A program made the position numbers and the translations under genes. This document shows, one piece after another, positions 236 through 46,608 of a stretch of DNA of 64,000 bases. Every line of letters starts with the position of its first letter. The first letter of the stretch is position 1. The notes beneath the pieces were generated by a model, which was not told the DNA's origin, did no database searches, and saw only the letters and a list, made by a program, of their open reading frames with translations. The DNA is from Brevinematales bacterium (lineage in GTDB: Bacteria; Spirochaetota; Brevinematia; Brevinematales; GWF1-51-8): positions 1-64,000 of the forward strand of contig JABLXV010000010.1 of the NCBI GenBank assembly GCA_013177895.1, written 5' to 3'.

Positions 236-3200
236 TTATTTCGCTCCCGCCTTCTTCAGCTTGTCGATGATCGCGAGGTAAATCGACCCTTTCGTTTTAT
301 CGTCCTTATACAGGGTTGCGCGCTGGAGCGGTGTGTACGTTTTCCCGGTGATCTCGAATTTCCCGTTCACGTCGACATTGTTTTTCAGGAGAAGGTCGAT
401 GATATCGATACTGCCCTTCTCGATAGCGTATCCGAGCGGGGTGCAACCGCTTTTCGCGGGTTGATTGACATTCGCGCCCTTCGAGATCAGGAAATCCGAC
501 ATAGTGATGCTATCCCCGATTATCGCGAACGTAAGAGGGGTATATTTCCAGAAGCATTCTTTATTGACATCCGCGCCGCTCTCGACCAGCGTTTTCATCA
601 GGTCGGGATTTTTCTTCTCGATAGCGAAACCGAGCGGGGTCTTATCGCCCATCGATTTTTCGTTGATATTCGCGCCGCTTGCTATCAGGCTTTTCAGCAG
701 GTCGATATTGCCCTTCTCGAGAACCATCCCGAGCGCGTTATAATCGGCGTTATTATACTGGAATTTTGCGCTGAGGTCGGCGCCCTTCGATATCAGGAGA
801 TTGAGGAGCGCGGAATTCCCCTTATCGATCGCGTAGGTGACAGGGGTATACTCGCGGTCGCCGATCAGGAATACGCCGTTGATATTCGCGCCCTTCGAGA
901 GCAGGAGATTGACCATATCGATATTCCCCTTCTCGATAGCGAAACCGAGCGGGGTATATTCGTTATTACTGAATTTGAACTTAGCGTTCAGGTCGACCTT
1001 TTTCTCGATCAGCGCGTCAAGTAACGCGGAGTTGCCCTTATCGAGGGCGTATCCCAACGGGGTATATTCCTTATCGCCGAGCTTGAATTTTCCGTTGGCG
1101 TCGGCGCCCTTAGCGAGCAGGATATTAAATAACGGCATATCTCCTTTTTCGATCGCGTATCCCACCGGCGTGTACTCCTTGCCCTTGAGGGAGAAGACGA
1201 TATTCACTCCCGCGCCTTTATCGATCATCAGGGTCATCAGTTCCTTGTTTTCTTTCTCCATCGCGTAGGATAACGGGGTATAGTCGAGTCCTCCGGATTT
1301 GAACTTCGCGTTGACGTCCGCGCCCTTCTCGATCAGTGACTTCGCGAGCGCGGTATCGCCTTTCTCGATTGCGAAGCCGAGCGGGGAATACTCCTTCTCG
1401 CCGACCATGAAGGTCGAGTTGATGTCCGCGCCCTGTTCGATCAGCATACCGAGCATACTTTTATCGCCCTTTTCGATAGCATAACCGAGAGGGGTGTATT
1501 CCTTCCCGCCGAACTGGAACTTGGCGTCGCCCGATGCGCCCTTCGACATCAAAAGCGCGATCATATCGGTCTTGCCCTTTTCCATCGCATAGGCGAGCGG
1601 AGTATATTCCATTTCGCCGAGCTTGAATTTACTGTTGATGTCCGCTTTCTTGTCAAGCAGTGTCTTCATCAGTTCGATGTTATCCTTGACCATCGCGTAG
1701 CCGAGCGGGGTAATTTCTTTCTGGCTCATTACGGCTTTTATATTAACATCCGCGCCCTTATCGACCAGTTTCTTCAATAGATCGATATTGTCCTTTTCAA
1801 TCGCGTATCCGAGAACGGAGTAGGGTTTGCCCATCGATTCGAACTTCAATCCGGGATTTGCGCCTTTATCGATCAGCAGGTTGAACATATCGGGAATATC
1901 CTTGACGATGGCATACCCGAGCGGGGTAAACGATTCGCCGAGGTAGGTGAATTGCACATTGGCGTCGCCGCCGTTCGCGAGCAGGAACGACACTACGTCC
2001 ATATTGCCGATCACCATCGCGAAGCTGAACGGGTCGTAGGTGCTGCCGGCGAGGTTGATCTTCACCTTCATATCCGCGCCCTTATCGATCAGGTATTTAA
2101 TAGTATCGAGATTGCCCTTCTGGATAGCGAAGATAAGCGGGGTATAGCTCGTAGCGTTTAAAGTAAATCCGCCGTTGATATTCGCCCCGCTGTCGACCAG
2201 TTTCTTAATCATATCGATGTTCTCGCGTTCGATAGCGTAGTAGAGCGGGGTTTTCCCGTTCCGCTCGACATTCACGTCGACGTTACCCTTCGCGATAATC
2301 AGGGTGAATACGTCGTAGTAGTCGCGTTCCATCGCCATCGCGAGGATATCGCCGACCTTCTGGTCGTCCACCAGCCCGAGGCCGATGATATGAGAAAGGA
2401 TATTGGTGCTTTCCATGATGACGGCTTTTTCGAGATAAGCCGCGCCGCTTTCACCGGCCTTGATTTTAGTCATCAGTATATTGACGTCGTCCTCGAGAAC
2501 GAAGTCGGAATTCTTTACTTTCAGCTGTTTATTCTTCGGCTGAATCTGGTTGTATTTCAGAAGAGTGCGGATTATCTTGATGCGCTTCCATTCCTCCATT
2601 TCACGGGGCGCGTCTTTCGCGTTGTTCTCATTATTCCATAGCAGGTAAGCAAATTCGATCAGGTTGAGAGAAAGTTTTTTGGCCGACGGCTTTCCGCCGG
2701 CTTTGGCGTATACCTGCGCGGAGATGGAGATATTATTTTTCAGTGTCGCACCCTTAGAGAGAAGCGCGTCCGCAAGTTTAGCGTCGGCGGAAATAGCGAG
2801 ATCGAGCGGGGTTACCAGTAACGGCGTATTGATCGATATTTCTTTGATAACGATTCCGCTGATATTCGGGATAGTGTCGTTAAACTGGGAGAGGTCGTCG
2901 AGCTTAGCGCCGACAGGGTATTTCGTAGGGTCGAAATCGCCCCGGAACACGTAGACCTTCGTCATCTTGGCCGCGCCTTCCTTGTATTCGACAGTCACCG
3001 TACAATACGGCTTCATCTGGATAGGGGTCTTCATCTTTGCGTCGGCGGATACCCCCTTCTGTCCCATCAGGAGCTGTATCATCGGGATATCCTGATTCTG
3101 CACCGCGAGATGGAGCGGGGTTACCCCGGCCGAGTCGGGAGCGTTGGCCGCCGCTCCGAGCTGAATCAGGTAACGCACCATATCGATCTTCTTAGCCTTC

Positions 3201-3598
3201 ACCGCCTGGTAGAGCGGGGTGGTTTTATCGTCCGCGGCGATGTTGATCATCTTCTTCTGATCCGCCGCCTTGGGCGTCAGTGACAGCAGGAAATTGACCG
3301 CGCTCTGATCCCAGTTAATCGCGATATAATGCATGGCGGTCATACCTTTGTATTTCAGGTTCAGATTCGCTTTATTCATGACGAGATAGTCCAGTAGAGG
3401 CTGAGACCATTTCTTCCCATAAGAGAAGTAGTAGGCGAGAACTGGCTGGGTTTTCAGGTCGAAACCGACTTTCTCGACATAGTTTTTTACAGTCGGCAGG
3501 TCGTTATTGGTGAGCGCCTCCCAGATATCCGCGGCGGCTAACGGTTTTACCGCGGCGAACAATAAGGCGAACGCAAGGAGAGTGCAGAACTTTTTCAT
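236..3598 (-). CDS. Secreted ankyrin-repeat protein with about 20 tandem repeats
   Basis: The 1120-residue protein has an N-terminal signal peptide (about residues 1-22, cleavage after PLAA). It is otherwise almost wholly ankyrin repeats. The N-terminal ones (about 55-190) are ordinary. From about residue 430 to the end they are regular units of about 36 residues carrying the phrase TPLGYAIEKG and then KGADIN. They are three residues longer than a canonical ankyrin unit, with a longer beta-hairpin finger. No enzymatic domain is visible, so a periplasmic or surface protein-binding scaffold is the likely role. The near-identity of neighbouring units at DNA level suggests expansion by recombination. 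A purine-rich ribosome site precedes the ATG. Confidence 0.9.
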   Translation of the reverse strand: MKKFCTLLAFALLFAAVKPLAAADIWEALTNNDLPTVKNYVEKVGFDLKTQPVLAYYFSYGKKWSQPLLDYLVMNKANLNLKYKGMTAMHYIAINWDQSAVNFLLSLTPKAADQKKMINIAADDKTTPLYQAVKAKKIDMVRYLIQLGAAANAPDSAGVTPLHLAVQNQDIPMIQLLMGQKGVSADAKMKTPIQMKPYCTVTVEYKEGAAKMTKVYVFRGDFDPTKYPVGAKLDDLSQFNDTIPNISGIVIKEISINTPLLVTPLDLAISADAKLADALLSKGATLKNNISISAQVYAKAGGKPSAKKLSLNLIEFAYLLWNNENNAKDAPREMEEWKRIKIIRTLLKYNQIQPKNKQLKVKNSDFVLEDDVNILMTKIKAGESGAAYLEKAVIMESTNILSHIIGLGLVDDQKVGDILAMAMERDYYDVFTLIIAKGNVDVNVERNGKTPLYYAIERENIDMIKKLVDSGANINGGFTLNATSYTPLIFAIQKGNLDTIKYLIDKGADMKVKINLAGSTYDPFSFAMVIGNMDVVSFLLANGGDANVQFTYLGESFTPLGYAIVKDIPDMFNLLIDKGANPGLKFESMGKPYSVLGYAIEKDNIDLLKKLVDKGADVNIKAVMSQKEITPLGYAMVKDNIELMKTLLDKKADINSKFKLGEMEYTPLAYAMEKGKTDMIALLMSKGASGDAKFQFGGKEYTPLGYAIEKGDKSMLGMLIEQGADINSTFMVGEKEYSPLGFAIEKGDTALAKSLIEKGADVNAKFKSGGLDYTPLSYAMEKENKELMTLMIDKGAGVNIVFSLKGKEYTPVGYAIEKGDMPLFNILLAKGADANGKFKLGDKEYTPLGYALDKGNSALLDALIEKKVDLNAKFKFSNNEYTPLGFAIEKGNIDMVNLLLSKGANINGVFLIGDREYTPVTYAIDKGNSALLNLLISKGADLSAKFQYNNADYNALGMVLEKGNIDLLKSLIASGANINEKSMGDKTPLGFAIEKKNPDLMKTLVESGADVNKECFWKYTPLTFAIIGDSITMSDFLISKGANVNQPAKSGCTPLGYAIEKGSIDIIDLLLKNNVDVNGKFEITGKTYTPLQRATLYKDDKTKGSIYLAIIDKLKKAGAK

Positions 3599-5141: not shown

Positions 5142-5170
5142 TTGACGATTATTGAATATATTACTAGTAT
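5142..5170 (+). promoter_or_regulatory. Candidate sigma70-type promoter of the glutathione peroxidase gene
   Basis: TTGACG at 5142-5147 and TAGTAT at 5165-5170 are 17 bp apart, about 30 bp upstream of the peroxidase ATG. The -35 box matches consensus at 5 of 6 positions and the -10 box at 4 of 6. Confidence 0.45.
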
Positions 5171-5202: not shown

Positions 5203-5721
5203 ATGGAAAAAATAGAAAGTTCTGTCAGTGTGTACGATTTCTCCGCGAAAACCATCACCGGAGAAAATAAGGATTTGTCTTCATATCAGGGGAAAGTGTT
5301 GATGATCGTCAATACCGCGAGTCTCTGCGGGTTTACGCCGCAGTACGCCGGCCTGCAGGAACTTTACCGGAAATACCGTTCGGACGGCCTCGAGATACTG
5401 GGATTCCCCTCCGACCAGTTCGCCCATCAGGAACCGGGTACCGACGGGGAGATACTCAAATTCACGAAGGAAAAGTACGGGGTGGAGTTCCAGATGTTTT
5501 CGAAGATCGAGGTGAACGGCGCGGGCGCGCATCCTCTCTATCAATGGCTGACCACCGCCGCGCGGGGGTTTATGGGCACCAAGGCGATCAAGTGGAATTT
5601 TACCAAGTTCCTGTTCGGCCGCAGGGGTAACTTATTCAAACGTTACTCGTCCCAGACCGAACCGTCCGCGATAGAGAAGGATATCATCGCGCTGATAGGA
5701 CTTGTGGATTTTTTTAACTAA
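5203..5721 (+). CDS. Glutathione peroxidase family (cysteine type), with a CRISPR-repeat-encoded C-terminus
   Basis: The 172-residue protein reduces peroxides, probably with thioredoxin because the active site is Cys rather than selenocysteine. The catalytic set is visible: C42 in NTASLCGFTPQY, Q76 in HQEPG and W131-N132 in KWNFTKF. A GGAGG ribosome site precedes the ATG. The last seven residues (GLVDFFN, 166-172) and the stop codon lie inside the first, degenerate CRISPR repeat (5694-5729). The ancestral C-terminus was therefore replaced or extended. The family usually ends near residue 160-165, so the enzyme is probably functional. Confidence 0.93.
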   Translation: MEKIESSVSVYDFSAKTITGENKDLSSYQGKVLMIVNTASLCGFTPQYAGLQELYRKYRSDGLEILGFPSDQFAHQEPGTDGEILKFTKEKYGVEFQMFSKIEVNGAGAHPLYQWLTTAARGFMGTKAIKWNFTKFLFGRRGNLFKRYSSQTEPSAIEKDIIALIGLVDFFN

Positions 5722-6652
5722 GGTATAATCGAGATACAAATCAAATCGATCATATCGAGGCTGGGACTTGTGGATTTTTTTAACTAAGGTATAATTCGAT
5801 AACCTCCTTCACCTGATCGTCCGTTGCTGGGACTTGTGGATTTTTTTAACTAAGGTATAATTTTAAAAATGTCGCCGTTACAGTATTCAATGCTGGGACT
5901 TGTGGATTTTTTTAACTAAGGTATAATTCCGGCCGTCACGTCCTATATATTTTACAAGCTGGGACTTGTGGATTTTTTTAACTAAGGTATAATAGGTTTT
6001 TTGCGTTCGTGATCGCGGTCTTCGCTGGGACTTGTGGATTTTTTTAACTAAGGTATAATCATGTTTAATTCTTTTGCTATTTCTTCGCAGCTGGGACTTG
6101 TGGATTTTTTTAACTAAGGTATAATCATGCCCAAACAATGGCAGTAGAATTTAACGCTGGGACTTGTGGATTTTTTTAACTAAGGTATAATCCGCCGGAG
6201 TGAGGAGTATTTCTCCCCGAGCTGGGACTTGTGGATTTTTTTAACTAAGGTATAATAGAAGTCAGTTTATCAACGTCACGGATAAGGCTGGGACTTGTGG
6301 ATTTTTTTAACTAAGGTATAATAAACTGTCGGGCGCGCCCGACACTTTTTTCGCTGGGACTTGTGGATTTTTTTAACTAAGGTATAATATGTGTGGGTTT
6401 TATTGCCGCGCGACATTTGCTGGGACTTGTGGATTTTTTTAACTAAGGTATAATGCGATCTGCGTGGATGTGCACGTGCACCGGGCTGGGACTTGTGGAT
6501 TTTTTTAACTAAGGTATAATAAACGGATTGGTTTTCCAGAAGATCGATTTGCTGGGACTTGTGGATTTTTTTAACTAAGGTATAATATCATTAAGGATTT
6601 CCCCATCGTAGAATGAGCTGGGACTTGTGGATTTTTTTAACTAAGGTATAAT
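5694..6652 (+). CRISPR. Type II-C CRISPR array: 15 repeats of 36 bp, 14 spacers
   Basis: Fourteen identical 36-bp repeats start at 5760, 5826, 5892, 5958, 6024, 6090, 6156, 6221, 6287, 6353, 6419, 6485, 6551 and 6617. They begin GCTGGGACTTGTGGAT and end AAGGTATAAT. A degenerate first repeat (5694-5729) matches over its last 32 bp. Spacers are 30 bp, with one of 29 (6192-6220). The plus strand is the crRNA strand: the repeat 5' half pairs with the tracrRNA anti-repeat near cas9. Each repeat carries TTGTGG (repeat bases 9-14) and a perfect TATAAT (31-36) 16 bp apart. This is the internal-promoter layout known from Neisseria and Campylobacter II-C arrays. Starts about 7 nt into a spacer would give roughly 24-nt guides. 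Confidence 0.98.
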
Positions 6653-6696
6653 ATCTCCCGTGTATCTCGTTGATATTTCGGGAGATATTATGCTTT
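6649..6696 (+). terminator. Inverted repeat closing the cas-proximal end of the array
   Basis: A perfect 12-bp inverted repeat (6649-6660 and 6679-6690) with an 18-nt loop is followed by TGCTTTTT. The left arm includes the last four bases of the final CRISPR repeat. Transcripts reading through the array would meet a terminator-like hairpin here. A transcript starting from the last repeat's own promoter (near 6659) would lack the left arm. An alternative role is a leader or integration anchor for Cas1-Cas2. Confidence 0.5.
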
Positions 6697-6709
6697 TTCA
6701 GGAAAAATA

Positions 6710-7048
6710 CTAGAATAATAAGAGTTGATCCGGCGGATCTTCGGCCTTTTTTTTCGTTCGCCCGTAAAATACTTCCATATCGCCGAATTGTTTATCGGTA
6801 ATCATGATCAATCTGACCTGCCCTTCTGTGGGAATAATCTGTTTGATTCGGTTTGCATAGGTTTGGCAGTTTTCTCTGGAGGTCGTGTAACGCGCATAGA
6901 CAGAGTATTGAAGCATGGAAAAACCTTCAGCTAATAGCCTTCTTCTGAAAGTTGTATAAGCTTTACGCTGACGGTGTTCCATAACGGGCAGATCGAATAT
7001 GACGAATAACCACATACCTTTGTATTCCGACGGTATTTCCCGTTTCAT
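6710..7048 (-). CDS. cas2: CRISPR-associated endonuclease Cas2
   Basis: Cas2 partners Cas1 in spacer integration. The protein has the type II Cas2 core GMWLFVIFDLPVMEHRQRK with the conserved Asp after the first strand, then RRRLLAEGFSMLQYSVYAR. The start chosen here (MKREIPSEYKG) gives 112 residues, the usual length. A longer reading to 7120 adds 24 residues with no family match and overlaps cas1 by 32 bp; neither start has a strong ribosome site. It is the last gene of the cas9-cas1-cas2 operon and faces the array across a 57-bp gap. Confidence 0.93.
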   Translation of the reverse strand: MKREIPSEYKGMWLFVIFDLPVMEHRQRKAYTTFRRRLLAEGFSMLQYSVYARYTTSRENCQTYANRIKQIIPTEGQVRLIMITDKQFGDMEVFYGRTKKKAEDPPDQLLLF

Positions 7049-7088
7049 ATGATTTATTTTCGGATAATGATTTATAGAATATAAGTGT

Positions 7089-7985
7089 TTATACGATGAG
7101 CGATTCAGGTAAAACGACATCCTTTCTCTTTTTCTCGAATATATTGAATACGGAAACCGTCAATTTAGTTAAAGCGTCAAAGATAGAAATATTTTCCTTT
7201 TTCATTCTTACGGACCCGGTAAGTATTTCCAGAATTCTTCTTTTTGTATCCTTATCTACTTCTTCGAAGGGGCTTTTTTCATTGAGTAGCTCGAATACTT
7301 TTTTATCCACCATAGGGCGAAAAGGTTCCATAAGATCGTCGGCAAGGCGAAAAGCGTCATATTGATTATGATGGTGTATTCCGAAAGAAGGATGAAGCCC
7401 TGAGGAACAGATGGCCCGGGCAGTACATGCGCGGAGAATAGTGTATCCGTAATTCAGAAAGCGGTTGTGGTCGCAGGCGTCTCTATCCCGCTTGAATTCT
7501 TTCCCGAACAATATTTTCCAATAAATTCGGGATGACTGCCCTTCGATGTTTTCAGGATCCCCCGACTGTACCAGTCCCGCCATTTGCTTCAGTCCGCCGT
7601 CCTGTTTGAGTTTATTAAATAATAACTCCGATTGGAAAAGAATTTTCTTCCGGACGATTTCTTTCCAGATATGTTTTTTTAACGGTAGCGAAGCGTTGAT
7701 CTGTGTGTCATAGTTCTTCGCCGCAGTAGTATGAACACCGACCGGGAGAAACATACCGGCAGGTAAATACCGGTTATCGCATAGTACCACCATGCCCCCG
7801 GATTGAATGATAGCTACAATCGCAGATTGGGTTATTGTGATTGCGGGATTGGACAGTAATAAAACGCCAACCTCTTCCACTGGAATGGTGTGCTTTTCGC
7901 CTTCATGTATCCTTATCTCGATTAAGCTGTTTGTCAGGTGTACATAAGCTCCAGTATCTGATAGCTCGATAATACGGTTAGTCAT
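7089..7985 (-). CDS. cas1: CRISPR-associated endonuclease/integrase Cas1 (type II)
   Basis: The 298-residue protein matches the length and layout of type II Cas1. Catalytic residues are visible: E148 (NIEGQSSRIYW), the histidine cluster H204-H206 (GIHHHNQYDAF) and the acidic D217/E220 (LADDLMEP). The N-terminal beta domain begins RIIELSDTGAYVHL. The start overlaps the cas9 stop in ATGACTAA, so it is probably translated by coupling. No csn2 or cas4 follows, which places the locus in subtype II-C. Confidence 0.96.
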   Translation of the reverse strand: MTNRIIELSDTGAYVHLTNSLIEIRIHEGEKHTIPVEEVGVLLLSNPAITITQSAIVAIIQSGGMVVLCDNRYLPAGMFLPVGVHTTAAKNYDTQINASLPLKKHIWKEIVRKKILFQSELLFNKLKQDGGLKQMAGLVQSGDPENIEGQSSRIYWKILFGKEFKRDRDACDHNRFLNYGYTILRACTARAICSSGLHPSFGIHHHNQYDAFRLADDLMEPFRPMVDKKVFELLNEKSPFEEVDKDTKRRILEILTGSVRMKKENISIFDALTKLTVSVFNIFEKKRKDVVLPESLIV

Positions 7986-10900
7986 TTGCGTATCGCACTT
8001 CGCCGAACGGGGTTAGTATTACTTTCCTACAGTTTGAAATACGTAAGGTATCAGGCATTTTTGAAAACCATTCTTTTGCTTCTTTAATATCTTTTTGTTT
8101 CCTAGCATCAAGAGATTTGACAAACATAATTTGAAGACTTTCCGGTATAGATCGAACTACAAAGAGTTCTCTTTTATCGTTCATATCCAATTCAATCATT
8201 GTTTTTTCATGAAGGCTGAATTTAAACTTCTTCCCTTCTCCAAAGTCGCGTAGGATCACAGGCTCGTGGTTCTTTTTTCTCCGATAAGCCTCGAACATCG
8301 ATACGCAATAACCTTCCCATTTGATTTCCTGCCCATTTTCGTCCAATACCGCTACAATTTCCATATGGTGATTGGATTCGTTTGCGACCCTGCGTAATCT
8401 ATCCCCGGATCCGATTGTAAACGTTTTTAAATTAGTCTCGATTATTACCGATTTAACGGGAATATTGATACCGTCTTTCCCCTCGATAACAGGAAGGTTG
8501 ACAGGGTCGGAAAATATTTTCTGCGGTTCCGCTTCACTCTTCTGCAGTAGTATCTGCTCGACTTTTCCTCTGATAAAGGAGTCCTTGATTTTCTGCACTT
8601 CATTTTTAGAAAGCGATTCCAGTTTCTTGCGGATAGTGACTTTCCCTTCTTCTCCGGTATCCCCGTAAAAGGTATCTGCGTGAAGTTTCCCGCTGACCTT
8701 ATTGCTGATGTGGTGAATCGGGATAATCGTTTCCACCTTTTTTTCCAGTTCGGAGAAGAATCCTTCCCACGGTTCGGCCTTTCCGGGAATCCTGGCCTTC
8801 CCGTAAATCCAGCTATGTTTGGCATAGTCCGCAAGTTCTTTGATCGAACGCCCGCTGGTCAGCGCGATGGCGACCGCATCCACAGCATGATGACGGTGAT
8901 CATCCCGGTTCTTTTTGTCGCCGCCCAAGGCTCGGTTCATCCCGTAATATCCGCGCAGATAGGCGGTAATCGCGCCCGAATTGCAGTATATCTTTCTATT
9001 TCCGTCTTCGTCCCATAATCCGCCATAAAGATATGATAGGTACTGCATGGCGAGTTTAGAAGCATAGCGGGTATCGTTCATATGCCGGTCGGTAAAGTCC
9101 TCGAAATAACTGGCATCGGCCATCATGAACCGGTCCAGCTTAATATCCCTGAATTTTCCCCTGAAACGGCTGACCCGTTCCTGTATAAGATTATATTTAT
9201 CGGGATTTGATATATATGCCTCGTAAGGCGTCTGGTCTCGTTTCACCGTGCGGTTCTCTTCATTATAGCAAAGTGTTTTATTAGCAAAAGAATCTTCGAG
9301 GCTCCTGCTGAGCGGAATAATATGCTCGATATCGAATTCCGGGGTAGGCCCGAAAAGAGCGGCGTGACTAATCGATTTCCCGGTATAAGGGCATTCCCAA
9401 TGGCTTTCTTCGGCAAGAAGGTATTTAGTGATCGTTTCACGCGACGGGTTCGTAATCCCGTTGCTTTCCAGATAGGCCTCCGCGCGTTTCCGCTCCTTCT
9501 CGTTCTCCCGGTTATCCTGAATCATCTTGGCGCGCCTTTCTTTGGACGCCTTCATCTCACGGGCAAGCTCAATGTGAATTTCCTGTGGGAGTCCGTATCG
9601 GGTAATAACCGCGTTCACACATCGTCTAACCTCTGTTAAACAGCGTTTGACTAACGGATTTGTTAAATTCTGCAGGCTCTTTTCCAGCATCGGTATTTGT
9701 TCGAGAATAGTCGTCTTTTGATGAAATTCGCCATATATATCCTTCACTGCCTCGGGGTAGGAAATCCCCTTTTTCATTCCGGGAAGTATTTTCTTCAGTG
9801 CCTTGAGCGATAATCCGCAGTACCCTTCTTCGAGTACTGCCTCACTGAGCAATTCGGCTTTTTCTGCCGTTAATCCCCATTTTGTCTTTCCTAAAGCTTT
9901 TAACCTCTCGATACTTTGAATGGAGTTGATATCGTGAAGGAGGTCCTCTTTTTGTACTCCCGTAAACGTTTCATATTCATCGCCGAATATCTGGGAAAGC
10001 ACATGATTGGTCTTGTTCCCTAATAGCCGTGTTTCGCCCCCCTCTTCAAAATTGATCTTGGTACCTTTTGCAGGGAGATTGAGGAGTTTTTTGGTTTCCG
10101 TAAGCGTCAGCCGATCGGTTTTATCAAGAGCCTTAAAAAGTATGTCACTTTCTTCATAGGACAGTTTCCGGCTCGGTTTCTTCTCCTCCATTATCCTCAG
10201 GTTATTCAGGGTTTGGAGAATCCTGAATTGCTGAGCCTCGATCCGGTACCACGGACAGCGCTTTGATGTTTTCTCATATTCGCACATTCCCACCAGATGG
10301 CGCGAACTTTTTAGAGGCCGCTGGAAGAATAGCGCGTCTTTGAGTTTGTTCTTATAATCTTCGTTTAGAAGTTGTGGATAGAATTGCCGTTGTTTTTCGA
10401 AGATGGTCTCGAATTCATCGAGGTACATATCCCTTCCGGTATATCTCCCCCTGATCCTTTTCTCCAAGGGATTGCTTTTCGAGTAATGCTCTCCGATTGT
10501 CCGATTGCCTGAGTTCTCGATTTCTTGATGTAGTTCTGATATTCCTTTTTTTACTTTTCCGTAGTCGTCCTGCTTTCTTAATTCCTTTCGATTGGATAAA
10601 AAGCCCCTACGTTGTGCGAGATGGTACAATACTCTTGCGAGTTCTTCAGGGGATAGTTGATGGTCGAGCGCGCGGGTGCGGAGATAGTACGGGATGATGT
10701 GGAAAAACTGCTTCGGATCGAAGGATTGGTCGAGATATTTTCCTACGGTTTCCTTATCGATCCGTTCGATAAATCCTTCCCTCGTTTCGCCTGACGGGAA
10801 TAAACCAATATTTTTCAGAAGATAATAAACTTTCAGTTTCCGGCGTCTTCTTCGATCCGATTGCCGCCTGATCTGGCGGGCGTTTCTCCTGTCGCTCGCG

Positions 10901-11070
10901 GCGGTGACCGGATTGGATGTCTCAAGGTCTTTCATTCCCGGATTGAATATCCTGACACCCATGCCAAGAATGGCTTTGGGATTCTTTTTACCGTCGTTTT
11001 GGATCACAGCCCACCCTAAGGAATTACTACCCAAATCCAGTCCTAGGATGTAATCTGATTTTTTATCCAT
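7978..11070 (-). CDS. cas9: Compact type II-C CRISPR effector nuclease Cas9
   Basis: The 1030-residue Cas9 is an RNA-guided DNA endonuclease loaded with crRNA and tracrRNA. All catalytic residues are present: RuvC-I D12 (GLDLGSNSLGWA), RuvC-II E501 (IHIELAREM), HNH H583 with N606 (FDIEHIIPLS) and RuvC-III H728/D731 (HRHHAVDAVAIA). The arginine-rich bridge helix spans about 60-80. The length is close to the Campylobacter and Neisseria II-C enzymes. The C-terminal PAM-interacting region (about 850-1030) has no recognised match, so the PAM is unknown. An ideal GGAGG site lies 6 bp before the ATG. The gene heads the cas9-cas1-cas2 operon, opposite in strand to the tracrRNA and array. Confidence 0.98.
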   Translation of the reverse strand: MDKKSDYILGLDLGSNSLGWAVIQNDGKKNPKAILGMGVRIFNPGMKDLETSNPVTAASDRRNARQIRRQSDRRRRRKLKVYYLLKNIGLFPSGETREGFIERIDKETVGKYLDQSFDPKQFFHIIPYYLRTRALDHQLSPEELARVLYHLAQRRGFLSNRKELRKQDDYGKVKKGISELHQEIENSGNRTIGEHYSKSNPLEKRIRGRYTGRDMYLDEFETIFEKQRQFYPQLLNEDYKNKLKDALFFQRPLKSSRHLVGMCEYEKTSKRCPWYRIEAQQFRILQTLNNLRIMEEKKPSRKLSYEESDILFKALDKTDRLTLTETKKLLNLPAKGTKINFEEGGETRLLGNKTNHVLSQIFGDEYETFTGVQKEDLLHDINSIQSIERLKALGKTKWGLTAEKAELLSEAVLEEGYCGLSLKALKKILPGMKKGISYPEAVKDIYGEFHQKTTILEQIPMLEKSLQNLTNPLVKRCLTEVRRCVNAVITRYGLPQEIHIELAREMKASKERRAKMIQDNRENEKERKRAEAYLESNGITNPSRETITKYLLAEESHWECPYTGKSISHAALFGPTPEFDIEHIIPLSRSLEDSFANKTLCYNEENRTVKRDQTPYEAYISNPDKYNLIQERVSRFRGKFRDIKLDRFMMADASYFEDFTDRHMNDTRYASKLAMQYLSYLYGGLWDEDGNRKIYCNSGAITAYLRGYYGMNRALGGDKKNRDDHRHHAVDAVAIALTSGRSIKELADYAKHSWIYGKARIPGKAEPWEGFFSELEKKVETIIPIHHISNKVSGKLHADTFYGDTGEEGKVTIRKKLESLSKNEVQKIKDSFIRGKVEQILLQKSEAEPQKIFSDPVNLPVIEGKDGINIPVKSVIIETNLKTFTIGSGDRLRRVANESNHHMEIVAVLDENGQEIKWEGYCVSMFEAYRRKKNHEPVILRDFGEGKKFKFSLHEKTMIELDMNDKRELFVVRSIPESLQIMFVKSLDARKQKDIKEAKEWFSKMPDTLRISNCRKVILTPFGEVRYAND

Positions 11071-11096: not shown

Positions 11097-11125
11097 TTGA
11101 CTCTTTTTTTGAAAACAATTAGAAT
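11097..11125 (+). promoter_or_regulatory. Promoter of the tracrRNA
   Basis: TTGACT (11097-11102) and TAGAAT (11120-11125) are 17 bp apart, each 5 of 6 to sigma70 consensus. The expected start near 11132 is the first base of the anti-repeat. Confidence 0.7.
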
Positions 11126-11131
11126 AATACT

Positions 11132-11212
11132 ATCCACAAGCCCTAGTAAGGGTACACCACGCGGGCAAGTTCCTACGGGAAATCCCTCAGCGGCCTTCGG
11201 GCCGTTTTTTTT
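11132..11212 (+). ncRNA. tracrRNA of the type II-C system
   Basis: Bases 11132-11147 are the anti-repeat. They pair with the first 16 nt of the CRISPR repeat with 13 Watson-Crick pairs, two G-U pairs and one C-A mismatch. After it come short stem-loops, including GGGAAATCCC at 11178-11187, and a GC-rich tetraloop terminator. The predicted RNA is about 80 nt. It is divergent from cas9 and lies 60 bp upstream of its ATG. The pairing is seen directly; the 5' end is inferred from the promoter. Confidence 0.88.
11191..11212 (+). terminator. Intrinsic terminator of the tracrRNA
   Basis: CGGCC-TTCG-GGCCG (11191-11204) is followed by eight T residues, a textbook rho-independent terminator. It also serves as the last stem of the tracrRNA. 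Confidence 0.9.
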
Positions 11213-11300: not shown

Positions 11301-12653
11301 CTAGGGCAGGGTGACCTGAATCGCCGCGCGGATTTCCTTGAGGATAGCCCCGTTGGTGGATTCCTTATTCAGCCATACGTCCGATACGGTGACTCCCCCG
11401 ATAATGCGATTGATCTGGTTGGTATCGGCGTATGCCCATGTGTCGTGCATGATATACGGGACATTGCCTACCTTGCCGAGGTACAGCATGATATGCCCCT
11501 TCTTGTAGATCAGCGAGGTCGCGGGCGGGAGTTTCAGGAGCGCGGGGATTTTCGCGTCATACGTCGCGTTCGTCTCGAACCTGCATATCAGCTTTCCGCA
11601 GAGGATTTGTTCCGACGTGTTGCGCGGGAGATAGATACCCGCGCACGCGAACACCTGCCAGATAAACCGCGAACAGTCCTGCTCGCCCCACATATCGCCC
11701 CATCCGTAGGGAGTATACAGCAGCCGGAACGCCTGATCGAGGATGACGCGCGGAGTATAGGGGAGATACCCCTTATGGACGTCGGATTTCTTGATATATG
11801 CGGGCTTGACCTCATACTCGCCGTTCTTGGTCTTGACCGGCACTTTAACCTTCCATACCCACGCGTTCGCCTCGCCGGTCAGCGGAAGGCGAGTCCCCAT
11901 TCGGACGAATTCGAACGGCTTGGTCAATCCCTTGTCCCAGTACAGGTCGGCCTTGGGGCTGGTCACGACGAGAAATAGTTCGGACGATATGTAATTTTTA
12001 AGCTGGGTGAGCGAGCAGTAAACTACTTTCGACGACTCGATCCAGCCCTCGGTCTGGTCTCCCCGGACGAATAGCCATTTTCCGTCCTTCGACTTATGCA
12101 TGATCGCGAGCGGGGTGCCCACCTCGGCGAGACTGAGCTGGAGACGGTCGAAATTCTCCTCCGGCTCGTTGAAAATCCCCTGCATGGTCGGCATAACGCG
12201 GAGATTCGCCATCGCGGTCACGAGACCGTACTTCAGCTTGACCTTATACGGAAACCACTCCGCGTTCATATTTTTTTTAACATCCATGAGATTTGTCAAT
12301 GTGATTTTTTGCCCCGCCGACACGAGCGGCCCGATATCGTTAAGGATATAATAAAAATTGCCCCATATCAGGTTTTTAACGGTTTTCCCCTTTTTGGTCG
12401 GGCCGTAGTCAGGGATAGATGCGACCCCTGTTTGCGCGATGATGTACTGGTTGAGTTTACTGATCTGCTTGGATGTTAGGATGGCTTTATCGGGCGAGGG
12501 GTGTATGCCTATCCAGAATCCCGCCGACATCATCTCGGGTCTGATCCCCGGCAGGATTGCGGGGGCGGTCGTGGACGGCTGAATATTCGCGGAATAGACC
12601 GCCGCGATAAATAGAACGGTTACTGTAGGAATATAAAGTATTATCCGGCGCAT
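11301..12653 (-). CDS. Periplasmic SH3-NlpC/P60 family cell-wall hydrolase (paralogue 1)
   Basis: The 450-residue protein has an N-terminal signal peptide, an N-terminal stabilising domain, SH3b-like regions in the middle (GTPLAIMHKSKDGKWLFVRGDQTEGWI) and a C-terminal NlpC/P60 papain-fold domain. The nucleophile is C327 in EQDCSRFIWQ; the histidine is in KGHIMLYLG, followed by YIMHDTW. Such enzymes cleave peptidoglycan stem peptides. A GGAGGG site precedes the ATG. A paralogue with the same layout lies at 20162-21517. The two share GYTPR, AFRLLYTPYGW and the active-site blocks. Confidence 0.9.
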   Translation of the reverse strand: MRRIILYIPTVTVLFIAAVYSANIQPSTTAPAILPGIRPEMMSAGFWIGIHPSPDKAILTSKQISKLNQYIIAQTGVASIPDYGPTKKGKTVKNLIWGNFYYILNDIGPLVSAGQKITLTNLMDVKKNMNAEWFPYKVKLKYGLVTAMANLRVMPTMQGIFNEPEENFDRLQLSLAEVGTPLAIMHKSKDGKWLFVRGDQTEGWIESSKVVYCSLTQLKNYISSELFLVVTSPKADLYWDKGLTKPFEFVRMGTRLPLTGEANAWVWKVKVPVKTKNGEYEVKPAYIKKSDVHKGYLPYTPRVILDQAFRLLYTPYGWGDMWGEQDCSRFIWQVFACAGIYLPRNTSEQILCGKLICRFETNATYDAKIPALLKLPPATSLIYKKGHIMLYLGKVGNVPYIMHDTWAYADTNQINRIIGGVTVSDVWLNKESTNGAILKEIRAAIQVTLP

Positions 12654-33047: not shown

Positions 33048-33791
33048 ATGAAAGTGATCGGGGTATATAATTCTAAGGGCGGAGTGGGCAAGACCACGTC
33101 ATGCGTCAACCTGTCGTATCTCGCGTCGGTCGGCGGAAAGAAGGTGCTGGTGTGGGATATCGATCCGCAGGGCGCGGCGACCTATTACCTGAATGTCCGC
33201 GCCGGGTTCAAAGGCGGGGCTAAGAAGATGATTAACCGTAAGGGCAATATCGCGGATTATGTCAAACCCACCGAGTACGACTTCATAGATATTCTCCCCG
33301 CCGATATATCCGAACGCCATATCGATATTATTCTCTATGGGATGAAGCATTCCAAGAAGAAGGTGCGGAGTTTCCTGAAGGAGTTCGAGGAATATTACGA
33401 TTACGTATTTATCGATTCCCCGCCGGGCTTCTCGCTCCTGTCGGAAAATCTTTTTATCGCGGCGGATTTCCTTCTGATACCGCTCATCCCCACACCGTTA
33501 TCGATCCGCGCCTACGAGCAGATCACCCAATACTTCGACGATAATTCGCTCGACCGGACGCACATCCTGCCGTTTTTTTCGATGGCGGACGCGCGTAAAA
33601 AAATCCACAGGGATTTCATCAAACAGTATGTTTCCAAGAACCCGGTATTCCTAAAATCGGTGATCCCGTATTCCTCGGAAGTCGAGCAGATGGGCATCCG
33701 GCGCGCGCCGCTCCCGGTATTCTCGCATAAGTCGAAGCCCGCCCAGAGTACGGTTAAACTGTGGGGGGAGATTCTGTCGCGGATCGGGTAA
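33048..33791 (+). CDS. ParA/MinD family ATPase (first of two)
   Basis: The 247-residue ATPase has the deviant Walker A KGGVGKTTS (about residues 10-18), Walker A' VWDIDPQGAATYY and Walker B YVFIDSPPG. The ATG at 33048 is chosen because a GGAG site lies 6 bp upstream; the frame also has an ATG at 33036. No parB or parS is adjacent, so this is an orphan ParA that may position a protein or envelope complex rather than segregate DNA. Confidence 0.9.
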   Translation: MKVIGVYNSKGGVGKTTSCVNLSYLASVGGKKVLVWDIDPQGAATYYLNVRAGFKGGAKKMINRKGNIADYVKPTEYDFIDILPADISERHIDIILYGMKHSKKKVRSFLKEFEEYYDYVFIDSPPGFSLLSENLFIAADFLLIPLIPTPLSIRAYEQITQYFDDNSLDRTHILPFFSMADARKKIHRDFIKQYVSKNPVFLKSVIPYSSEVEQMGIRRAPLPVFSHKSKPAQSTVKLWGEILSRIG

Positions 33792-45966: not shown

Positions 45967-46608
45967 TTATGAAATAAGCTGGATACGCAGTATCACTTTA
46001 CCGAATATATTCAGCTTTTTTATATCCGATGCGGCGATTTCTTCCGACGGGTAACGGTTATTATCGGGATTGATGAGTATTTTCCCGTCGAGACGGAAAT
46101 AGATACGCCGGGAAAAAAGATACCCGTTACGGTTCAGGATGTATATCCCGTCAGATAACAGCTCGGGATTGGATTGCAGGAAAAGATAATCCCCGCGATA
46201 AATAGTAGGCTCCATTGAGTCGCTGGTCTCGCGGATTGCGAATAGTTTTTCCTTATCGATATCTTTTACTAAGGTCGAGGAGATTGGGAAATAATCGTGA
46301 ACATCGGGGGTTTCTTCCTTACCCTCGCCGGATACCGGGGTCTCGTTAGAAATAAGCGGAATCATCAGGATAGATTCCTCGTTGAGGGGAACCGGGTGAT
46401 GGTGGAACGGGGCGCCTTTACCCAGCATAAGCCATTCGAGATTAACGTTCCATTCCCTGTTCATAATCTGCATCACGGGAATAGTAGGACGATTTTTACC
46501 GGTCTCAATCGCGCTGATCGAGTCCTGCGATAGACCCAGTTTGTTTCCGAAGGTCTCCTGATTGAGTGAAAGATACTTTCTTATCTGACGAAATCTTTGA
46601 GCAATCAT
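45967..46608 (-). CDS. XRE-family repressor with S24 (LexA/CI-like) C-terminal domain
   Basis: The 213-residue protein has an N-terminal HTH (about 4-60, LNQETFGNKLGLSQDSISAIETGK) and a C-terminal S24 domain. The serine of the cleavage dyad is S131 (TSDSMEPTIYRGDYLF). The lysine expected in the VKRI-like strand is Arg (R167 in LFSRRIYF), so self-cleavage may be lost or altered. Phage CI-type and stress-response repressors share this plan. It probably controls the adjacent parA operon or itself. Confidence 0.9.
   Translation of the reverse strand: MIAQRFRQIRKYLSLNQETFGNKLGLSQDSISAIETGKNRPTIPVMQIMNREWNVNLEWLMLGKGAPFHHHPVPLNEESILMIPLISNETPVSGEGKEETPDVHDYFPISSTLVKDIDKEKLFAIRETSDSMEPTIYRGDYLFLQSNPELLSDGIYILNRNGYLFSRRIYFRLDGKILINPDNNRYPSEEIAASDIKKLNIFGKVILRIQLIS

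Follow-up and report, generated by a model that had tools for sequence, protein, structure and literature searches.

In the type II-C system of Neisseria meningitidis, each repeat of the CRISPR array reportedly carries a promoter, and experiments attributed to Zhang in 2013 are said to have shown processing-independent crRNAs made in this way. In Campylobacter jejuni, transcription starts at position five of each spacer, and the repeat ends in GGTAAAAT (Dugar 2013, PMC3656092). Pearson 2015 (PMC4607530) describes the motif gnTAnaaT at the ends of II-C repeats, together with convergent arrays and a degenerate proximal repeat. According to Feussner 2025 (PMC12080349), a promoter is contained in each II-C repeat, spacers are added at the last repeat, and upstream terminators and hairpins act against extraneous crRNA. 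In PMC5006608 a putative II-C leader is noted to contain a palindrome, whereas no promoter was found in the repeats of R. anatipestifer. An earlier note on the DNA analysed here had stated that repeat-internal promoters are already known in II-C arrays, and PMC3656092, PMC4607530 and PMC12080349 bear this out.

The window is a stretch of 64,000 nucleotides from a Brevinematales bacterium (contig JABLXV010000010.1, positions 1 to 64,000). It contains cas9 (7978–11070, 1030 aa, TIGR01865), cas1 of type II (7089–7985, TIGR03639) and cas2 (6710–7120, TIGR01573). All three are on the minus strand, convergent with an array on the plus strand (5694–6652). The locus is a type II-C CRISPR-Cas9 system. 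These are the sole cas genes seen, the absence of csn2 and cas4 being judged from the layout of open reading frames alone; the remaining frames of at least 80 aa in the insertion described below all overlap cas genes or the array.

The locus resembles that of C. jejuni in the order cas9-cas1-cas2 and in repeats ending in an extended -10, GGTAAAAT there and GGTATAAT here (PMC3656092). It shares the motif, the convergent layout and the degenerate proximal repeat with the arrays of Pearson 2015 (PMC4607530). Unlike in C. jejuni, where the starts were mapped, those of this locus are predicted from sequence. Besides, the -10 is exact here, the predicted tracrRNA is divergent beside cas9 instead of downstream of the array, and its anti-repeat covers about 15 nt instead of repeat bases 2–25 (PMC4607530). 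We consider it quite probable that the window holds an acquired II-C locus in which every repeat would be a sigma-70-type promoter and a hairpin at the array end would stop transcription.

The array and its junction with a host gene

The array consists of 15 repeats of 36 nt (starting at 5694, 5760, 5826, 5892, 5958, 6024, 6090, 6156, 6221, 6287, 6353, 6419, 6485, 6551 and 6617) and 14 spacers. Fourteen repeats, which occupy 5760–6652 with 13 intervening spacers, are identical, with the sequence GCTGGGACTTGTGGATTTTTTTAACTAAGGTATAAT. In all 15, TTGTGG is at bases 9–14 (-35-like) and TATAAT at bases 31–36 (-10), with a spacing of 16 bp, just as the earlier note had described. The 3' end is GGTATAAT in 15 of 15 and fits the sigma-70 -10 motif gnTAnaaT. 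Spacers of 30 nt, the length given in that note, account for 13 of the 14; the remaining one is 29 nt. An exact search of the 3.6-Mb assembly (95% complete) with repeat bases 2–36 finds 14 copies, all in this array.

TATAAT is expected anywhere in one shuffled repeat with a frequency of 3.0%, and at its 3' end with 0.09% (200,000 shuffles). The presence of the boxes in 15 of 15 repeats adds little beyond one repeat, because the repeats are copies by descent; it was rejected as independent support, and relatives carry the weight instead. A strong -35 was also rejected, since TTGTGG matches TTGACA at only three of six positions. A consensus promoter scan of the plus strand (at least 4/6 per hexamer) listed none within the repeats.

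The first repeat (5694–5729) is different from the others at positions 2 and 4 only and retains both boxes. It overlaps the 3' end of a glutathione peroxidase gene (gpx, 5203–5721, plus strand), whose stop codon (5719–5721) falls inside the repeat. The reading frame runs through A-L-I-G (A-L-L-G in a relative) and continues inside the repeat as L-V-D-F-F-N-stop. In a same-genus locus (L151), a match to an NlpC/P60-family gene begins no more than about 60 nt after gpx. The gene of this family in the window ends at 11301 (minus strand), and the match of L151 begins at 11302. The alignment with another locus near a contig end (L150) breaks off exactly at 5694, with a similar follow-on by eye. The insertion has a G+C content of 43%, whereas the remainder of the window has 51%, and no Cas9 match is present in the same-genus genomes G001–G003. 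The same-genus genomes show the empty site, and judged from these alignments the CRISPR locus is therefore a 5.6-kb insertion into the last codons of gpx. Most simply, the odd opening bases of the first repeat would be gpx sequence and not decay of the oldest repeat. The degenerate repeat of the earlier note is probably a junction with gpx. This is a difference from the II-C arrays of Pearson 2015 (PMC4607530), since the first repeat here is a junction with a host gene. Elsewhere in the window, a long open reading frame (236–3598, minus strand, 1120 aa) contains many ankyrin-like repeats, as judged by eye only.

The orientation of the array was set independently of the -10, from the strand of the anti-repeat and the trailing TAAGGG, as in relatives such as L040. 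Protospacers were found neither in the phages and plasmids searched nor in viral contigs, for which six of the 14 spacers were each represented by a single piece; three viral-contig hits aligned over only 18–22 of 30 spacer bases. Orientation by PAM is therefore not available. The variant first repeat sits far from cas2, which fits addition at the last repeat, although this is confounded by the gpx junction. PMC12638026 contains a warning that II-C groups may differ in the end of acquisition.

Repeat ends in relatives

Two sets of relatives were compared. For the wide set, genome contigs were scanned by alignment with Cas9, and the best 80 loci were kept; an array was found in 46. Fifteen Bacteroidetes-type arrays were set aside by repeat and title, one of them (L054) by title only, with a repeat that resembles the main group and ends in TATAAAAT. 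L051 was dropped for its short repeat. The final set contains 30 arrays and that of this window, 31 in total, with 30 distinct repeats. Transcription convergent with cas9 was assumed throughout the group, an orientation with which the best anti-repeat fit agrees in 26 of 32. The six that disagree (L039, L055, L078, L098, L108 and L110) mostly have stray repeat copies or near-ties scoring higher. Among the Bacteroidetes loci, L057, L060, L067, L072 and others have repeats co-directional with cas9, and in several of them part of the repeat start is present in inverted form immediately 5' of the first repeat.

For the host phylum, a Cas9 match is seen in 53 of the 392 genomes searched. From 45 fetched loci, 25 have a usable repeat (22 distinct), 11 have no array, three have no usable array, and six are II-A-like. 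This set was sorted by repeat, not by Cas9 subtype, and includes large Cas9s of about 1260–1460 aa.

The pattern T-A-N3-T is at the 3' end of 25 of the 30 distinct non-Bacteroidetes repeats of the wide set, against 11 of 900 other positions. In the host phylum it ends 15 of 22 repeats, against 18 of 660 elsewhere. II-A-like repeats of the phylum (GTTTGAGAG...CTCAAAC) show no such end in five full ones by inspection; the sixth is incomplete. A TTG precedes the end hexamer by 16 bp in 15 of the 30 wide-set repeats and by 15–19 bp in 20 (shuffles: mean 5.1, maximum 12). At 16 bp it is seen in 18 of the 22 host-phylum repeats. The end is exactly TATAAT in four of the 30 wide-set repeats (L047, L070, L099 and this locus) and in 12 of the 22 of the host phylum. 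The exact-consensus -10 pointed out in the earlier note is confirmed, yet it is usual for this phylogenetic neighbourhood, and its reading as something exceptional was rejected.

The host itself uses this promoter type, as far as the upstream regions of its tRNA genes tell. Of the 45 tRNAs found, 30 upstream regions were examined; 18 of these reach a sigma-70 promoter score of 10 or more, compared with 4% of shuffles. An exact TATAAT is contained in 15 of the 30, and 12 of these 15 contain TTGACR; host tRNA promoters are often TTGACR-17-TATAAT.

Based on the relatives and the analogy with C. jejuni, the -10 part of the proposed promoter is well supported. The -35 part is weaker, with three of six matches inside the stretch predicted to pair with the tracrRNA. 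As the TTG lies within this paired part, its conservation is ambiguous and gives no sign of promoter use. A promoter borne by the repeat is very likely the right reading, and an ordinary one for II-C. Each repeat would act as a sigma-70-type promoter. With the -10 as the last six bases of the repeat, RNA polymerase would start about 6–8 nt into the next spacer. The product would be a guide of 22–24 nt followed by the next repeat, made without 5' processing. The locus would thus resemble that of N. meningitidis, with its reported promoter per repeat and short guides free of 5' processing. All of these putative promoters face the convergent cas operon from its 3' side.

The hairpin at the end of the array

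A hairpin is located directly 3' of the last repeat (6648–6698, plus strand). Its 13-bp arms (6648–6660 and 6679–6691) are followed by GC and TTTTT, GCTTTTTC, which is a stable stem with a T-run on the transcribed strand, as in intrinsic terminators. The first arm starts within the -10 of the last repeat. RNA of 6617–6760 folds at -45.8 kcal/mol (z -4.75), and RNA of 6648–6697 at -23.3 (z -7.6). A start at about 6659, as predicted for the last promoter, would remove most of the first arm, and the RNA that begins at 6659 shows no better fold than shuffled sequence does (z 0.98); it can still form a hairpin that ends beside the T-run.

Folding of the 62 nt that directly follow the last repeat was compared with that of shuffles (p<=0.05). 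In the wide set, 19 of 31 loci are significant, whereas on the upstream side of the array 4 of 23 are. In the host phylum, where 24 loci were included and the leader of L153 was masked, 14 of 24 are significant, against 1 of 22 on the other side. A significant hairpin is thus absent from 12 and 10 loci of the two sets, respectively. The Bacteroidetes-type arrays (13 of 15, with repeats of at least 33 nt) give 1 of 13 and 2 of 11 on the other side. The II-A-like arrays (L214–L219) give 0 of 5, and 2 of the 3 testable on the other side. The far side covers fewer loci because contigs end. With contiguous stems as the measure, the counts are 16 of 31 against 3 of 23 for the wide set, 2 of 13 for the Bacteroidetes type, and 5 of 24 against 1 of 22 for the host phylum. 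Folding, which tolerates mismatches, was adopted after the host-phylum sequences had been inspected for contiguous stems, and therefore its host-phylum result is not a blind replication.

Hairpins are seen directly after the last repeat, on the side of cas2, also in L039, L042, L091, L096, L105, L107, L155, L186, L187, L191–L194, L197 and L198; those of L039 and L042 have no following T-run. Nine host-phylum leaders have a hairpin that starts at base 1, followed by (A/G)TTTTTTTT or (A/G)TTATTTTT. Compensatory changes are found in 10 of 12 pairs, pairing holds in 96.3% of cells, and each of the five measures is reached by 0 of 500 shuffles. These nine were picked from the 24 for looking alike, and as related leaders they are not nine independent cases.

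Based on the structure, the covariation and the strand bias of the T-run, the hairpin and T-run would stop transcription of the array. It can be proposed, with somewhat more confidence than doubt, that II-C arrays with promoters in their repeats often share an intrinsic terminator that begins on, or close to, the first base 3' of the last repeat. It would be kept by compensatory changes and not by sequence. Such a terminator would cap the last promoter, which has no spacer, and shield the cas operon from antisense transcription, with new spacers entering between it and the old array.

The hairpin might instead serve spacer integration as a DNA site, or form a cruciform. This is possible but doubtful. 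It sits where II-C systems add new spacers (PMC12080349), a T-run of at least four is missing from 15 of the 33 significant hairpins, and covariation cannot separate a DNA palindrome from an RNA hairpin. However, the arm sequences differ between most lineages (L105 and L117 share part), which speaks against a site read in sequence by a protein. The T-run also favours the strand of the array. In the host phylum, a T-run of at least four follows the fold on the array strand in 11 of 14 and on the cas strand in 3 of 14 (p=0.005). In the wide set the counts are 7 of 19 and 1 of 19 (p=0.052), so that such a run is absent after 12 of the 19 significant hairpins. Another measure, by stem ends, gives 10 of 18 against 2 of 18 (p=0.003). 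The same counts make it improbable that the hairpin is merely the terminator of the cas operon, even though it lies between cas2 and the array, where terminators are often held; in the nine look-alike loci, the array strand has T5–T9 and the cas strand at most T2.

The proposed terminator at the array end has a parallel in the hairpins and terminators that shape the transcription of II-C arrays in Feussner 2025 (PMC12080349). Those elements are located upstream of the first (oldest) repeat, while the hairpin here follows the last repeat, on the side of acquisition. No mention of an array-end hairpin was found in the available part of PMC4607530. The literature searched, as far as its texts were available and with most subscription papers outside it, yielded no description of a terminator that follows the last II-C repeat.

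Predicted pairing with the tracrRNA and transcription of the array

The predicted tracrRNA (11132–11212, plus strand) adjoins cas9. It would be transcribed from its own predicted promoter, TTGACT-17-TAGAAT (11097–11125, plus strand), with a start near 11132, and would pair with the 5' part of the repeat only. It contains an anti-repeat to repeat bases 2–16, hairpins and a T-tailed terminator. It was chosen for its location, for its promoter and terminator, and for a TAAGGG that trails the anti-repeat as it does in relatives, and not for its pairing: its anti-repeat score of 33.5 is not the best of the window, which has 36.5 at 46275 (minus strand) and 34.5 at 33596 (plus strand). Rfam gives no tracrRNA match at the gathering score.

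By eye, repeat bases 2–6 and 8–16 pair, with an A-C mismatch at base 7. A scripted fit continues weakly to base 28, and the predicted start is 13 nt inside it. Repeat bases 17–36 have no partner in the predicted tracrRNA. Since the predicted tracrRNA starts opposite repeat base 16 or so, TATAAT is not accounted for by pairing in this locus. Ten of the 25 host-phylum loci (L153, L155, L186, L187, L191–L194, L197 and L198) have a predicted tracrRNA that covers repeat bases 1–30 and leaves the -10 uncovered. In the wide set, anti-repeat DNA extends to the last repeat base in 12 of 30 loci. In at least L040, L044 and L049, the predicted start would include this base, and there pairing could also keep the 3' end of the repeat. 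These comparisons are limited by a tracrRNA promoter predicted in only 33 of 56 loci; poor scripted fits in L047, L070 and L116 came from a misplaced search window, and another fit located their anti-repeats.

The predicted anti-repeat of about 15 nt (11132–11160) is very short. The best Cas9 match of the wide-set scan is L039. A short anti-repeat unique to this locus was rejected, as about 18 nt is predicted for L039 and about 17 nt for L160, L162 and L208.

Spacer 10 (6323–6352, plus strand) resembles a terminator. This palindrome has a 7-bp GC-rich stem (6327–6344) and then CTTTTTT, a run of six T, and four spacers lie beyond it. No exact viral match to it was found. Under one upstream promoter it should silence the four later spacers, and with a promoter in every repeat it would matter less; this is no more than suggestive.

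The array could be transcribed mainly from outside, by gpx mRNA from a promoter-like TTGACG-17-TAGTAT upstream of gpx (5142–5170), with pre-crRNA then processed. As gpx continues into the first repeat and stops there, and no terminator intervenes, its mRNA can run into the array. This source is nevertheless unlikely as the main one. Spacer 10 would cut off spacers 11–14, the predicted tracrRNA duplex of only about 15 nt with an A-C mismatch would be poor for RNase III, and the -10 is kept across phyla. Such transcription need not exclude internal promoters. It is equally unlikely that the 3' end of the repeat is conserved as a terminal inverted repeat for integration by Cas1-Cas2: the ends of many II-C repeats are indeed partly inverted (GTTGTGA/TTACAAT), with 3.13 of 8 matches on average, but swapped 3' ends give 2.92 and 88 of 2000 permutations reach the observed mean. 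On inspection, the motif is absent from the five II-A-like control repeats of the phylum. The repeat of this locus matches at only 2 of 8 positions, so that its perfect -10 is combined with a poor inverted repeat.

The repeat-borne promoter is published for II-C, and this locus is mainly a confirmation from one more lineage. It adds an example of a -10 that predicted pairing with the tracrRNA leaves unexplained. The array-end hairpin appears to be the fresher finding, a terminator-like structure that closes this array and many of its relatives. If it is a real terminator, it would explain how II-C systems keep identical promoters from driving antisense transcription through their own cas genes, and part of the II-C 'leader' would be defined structurally.
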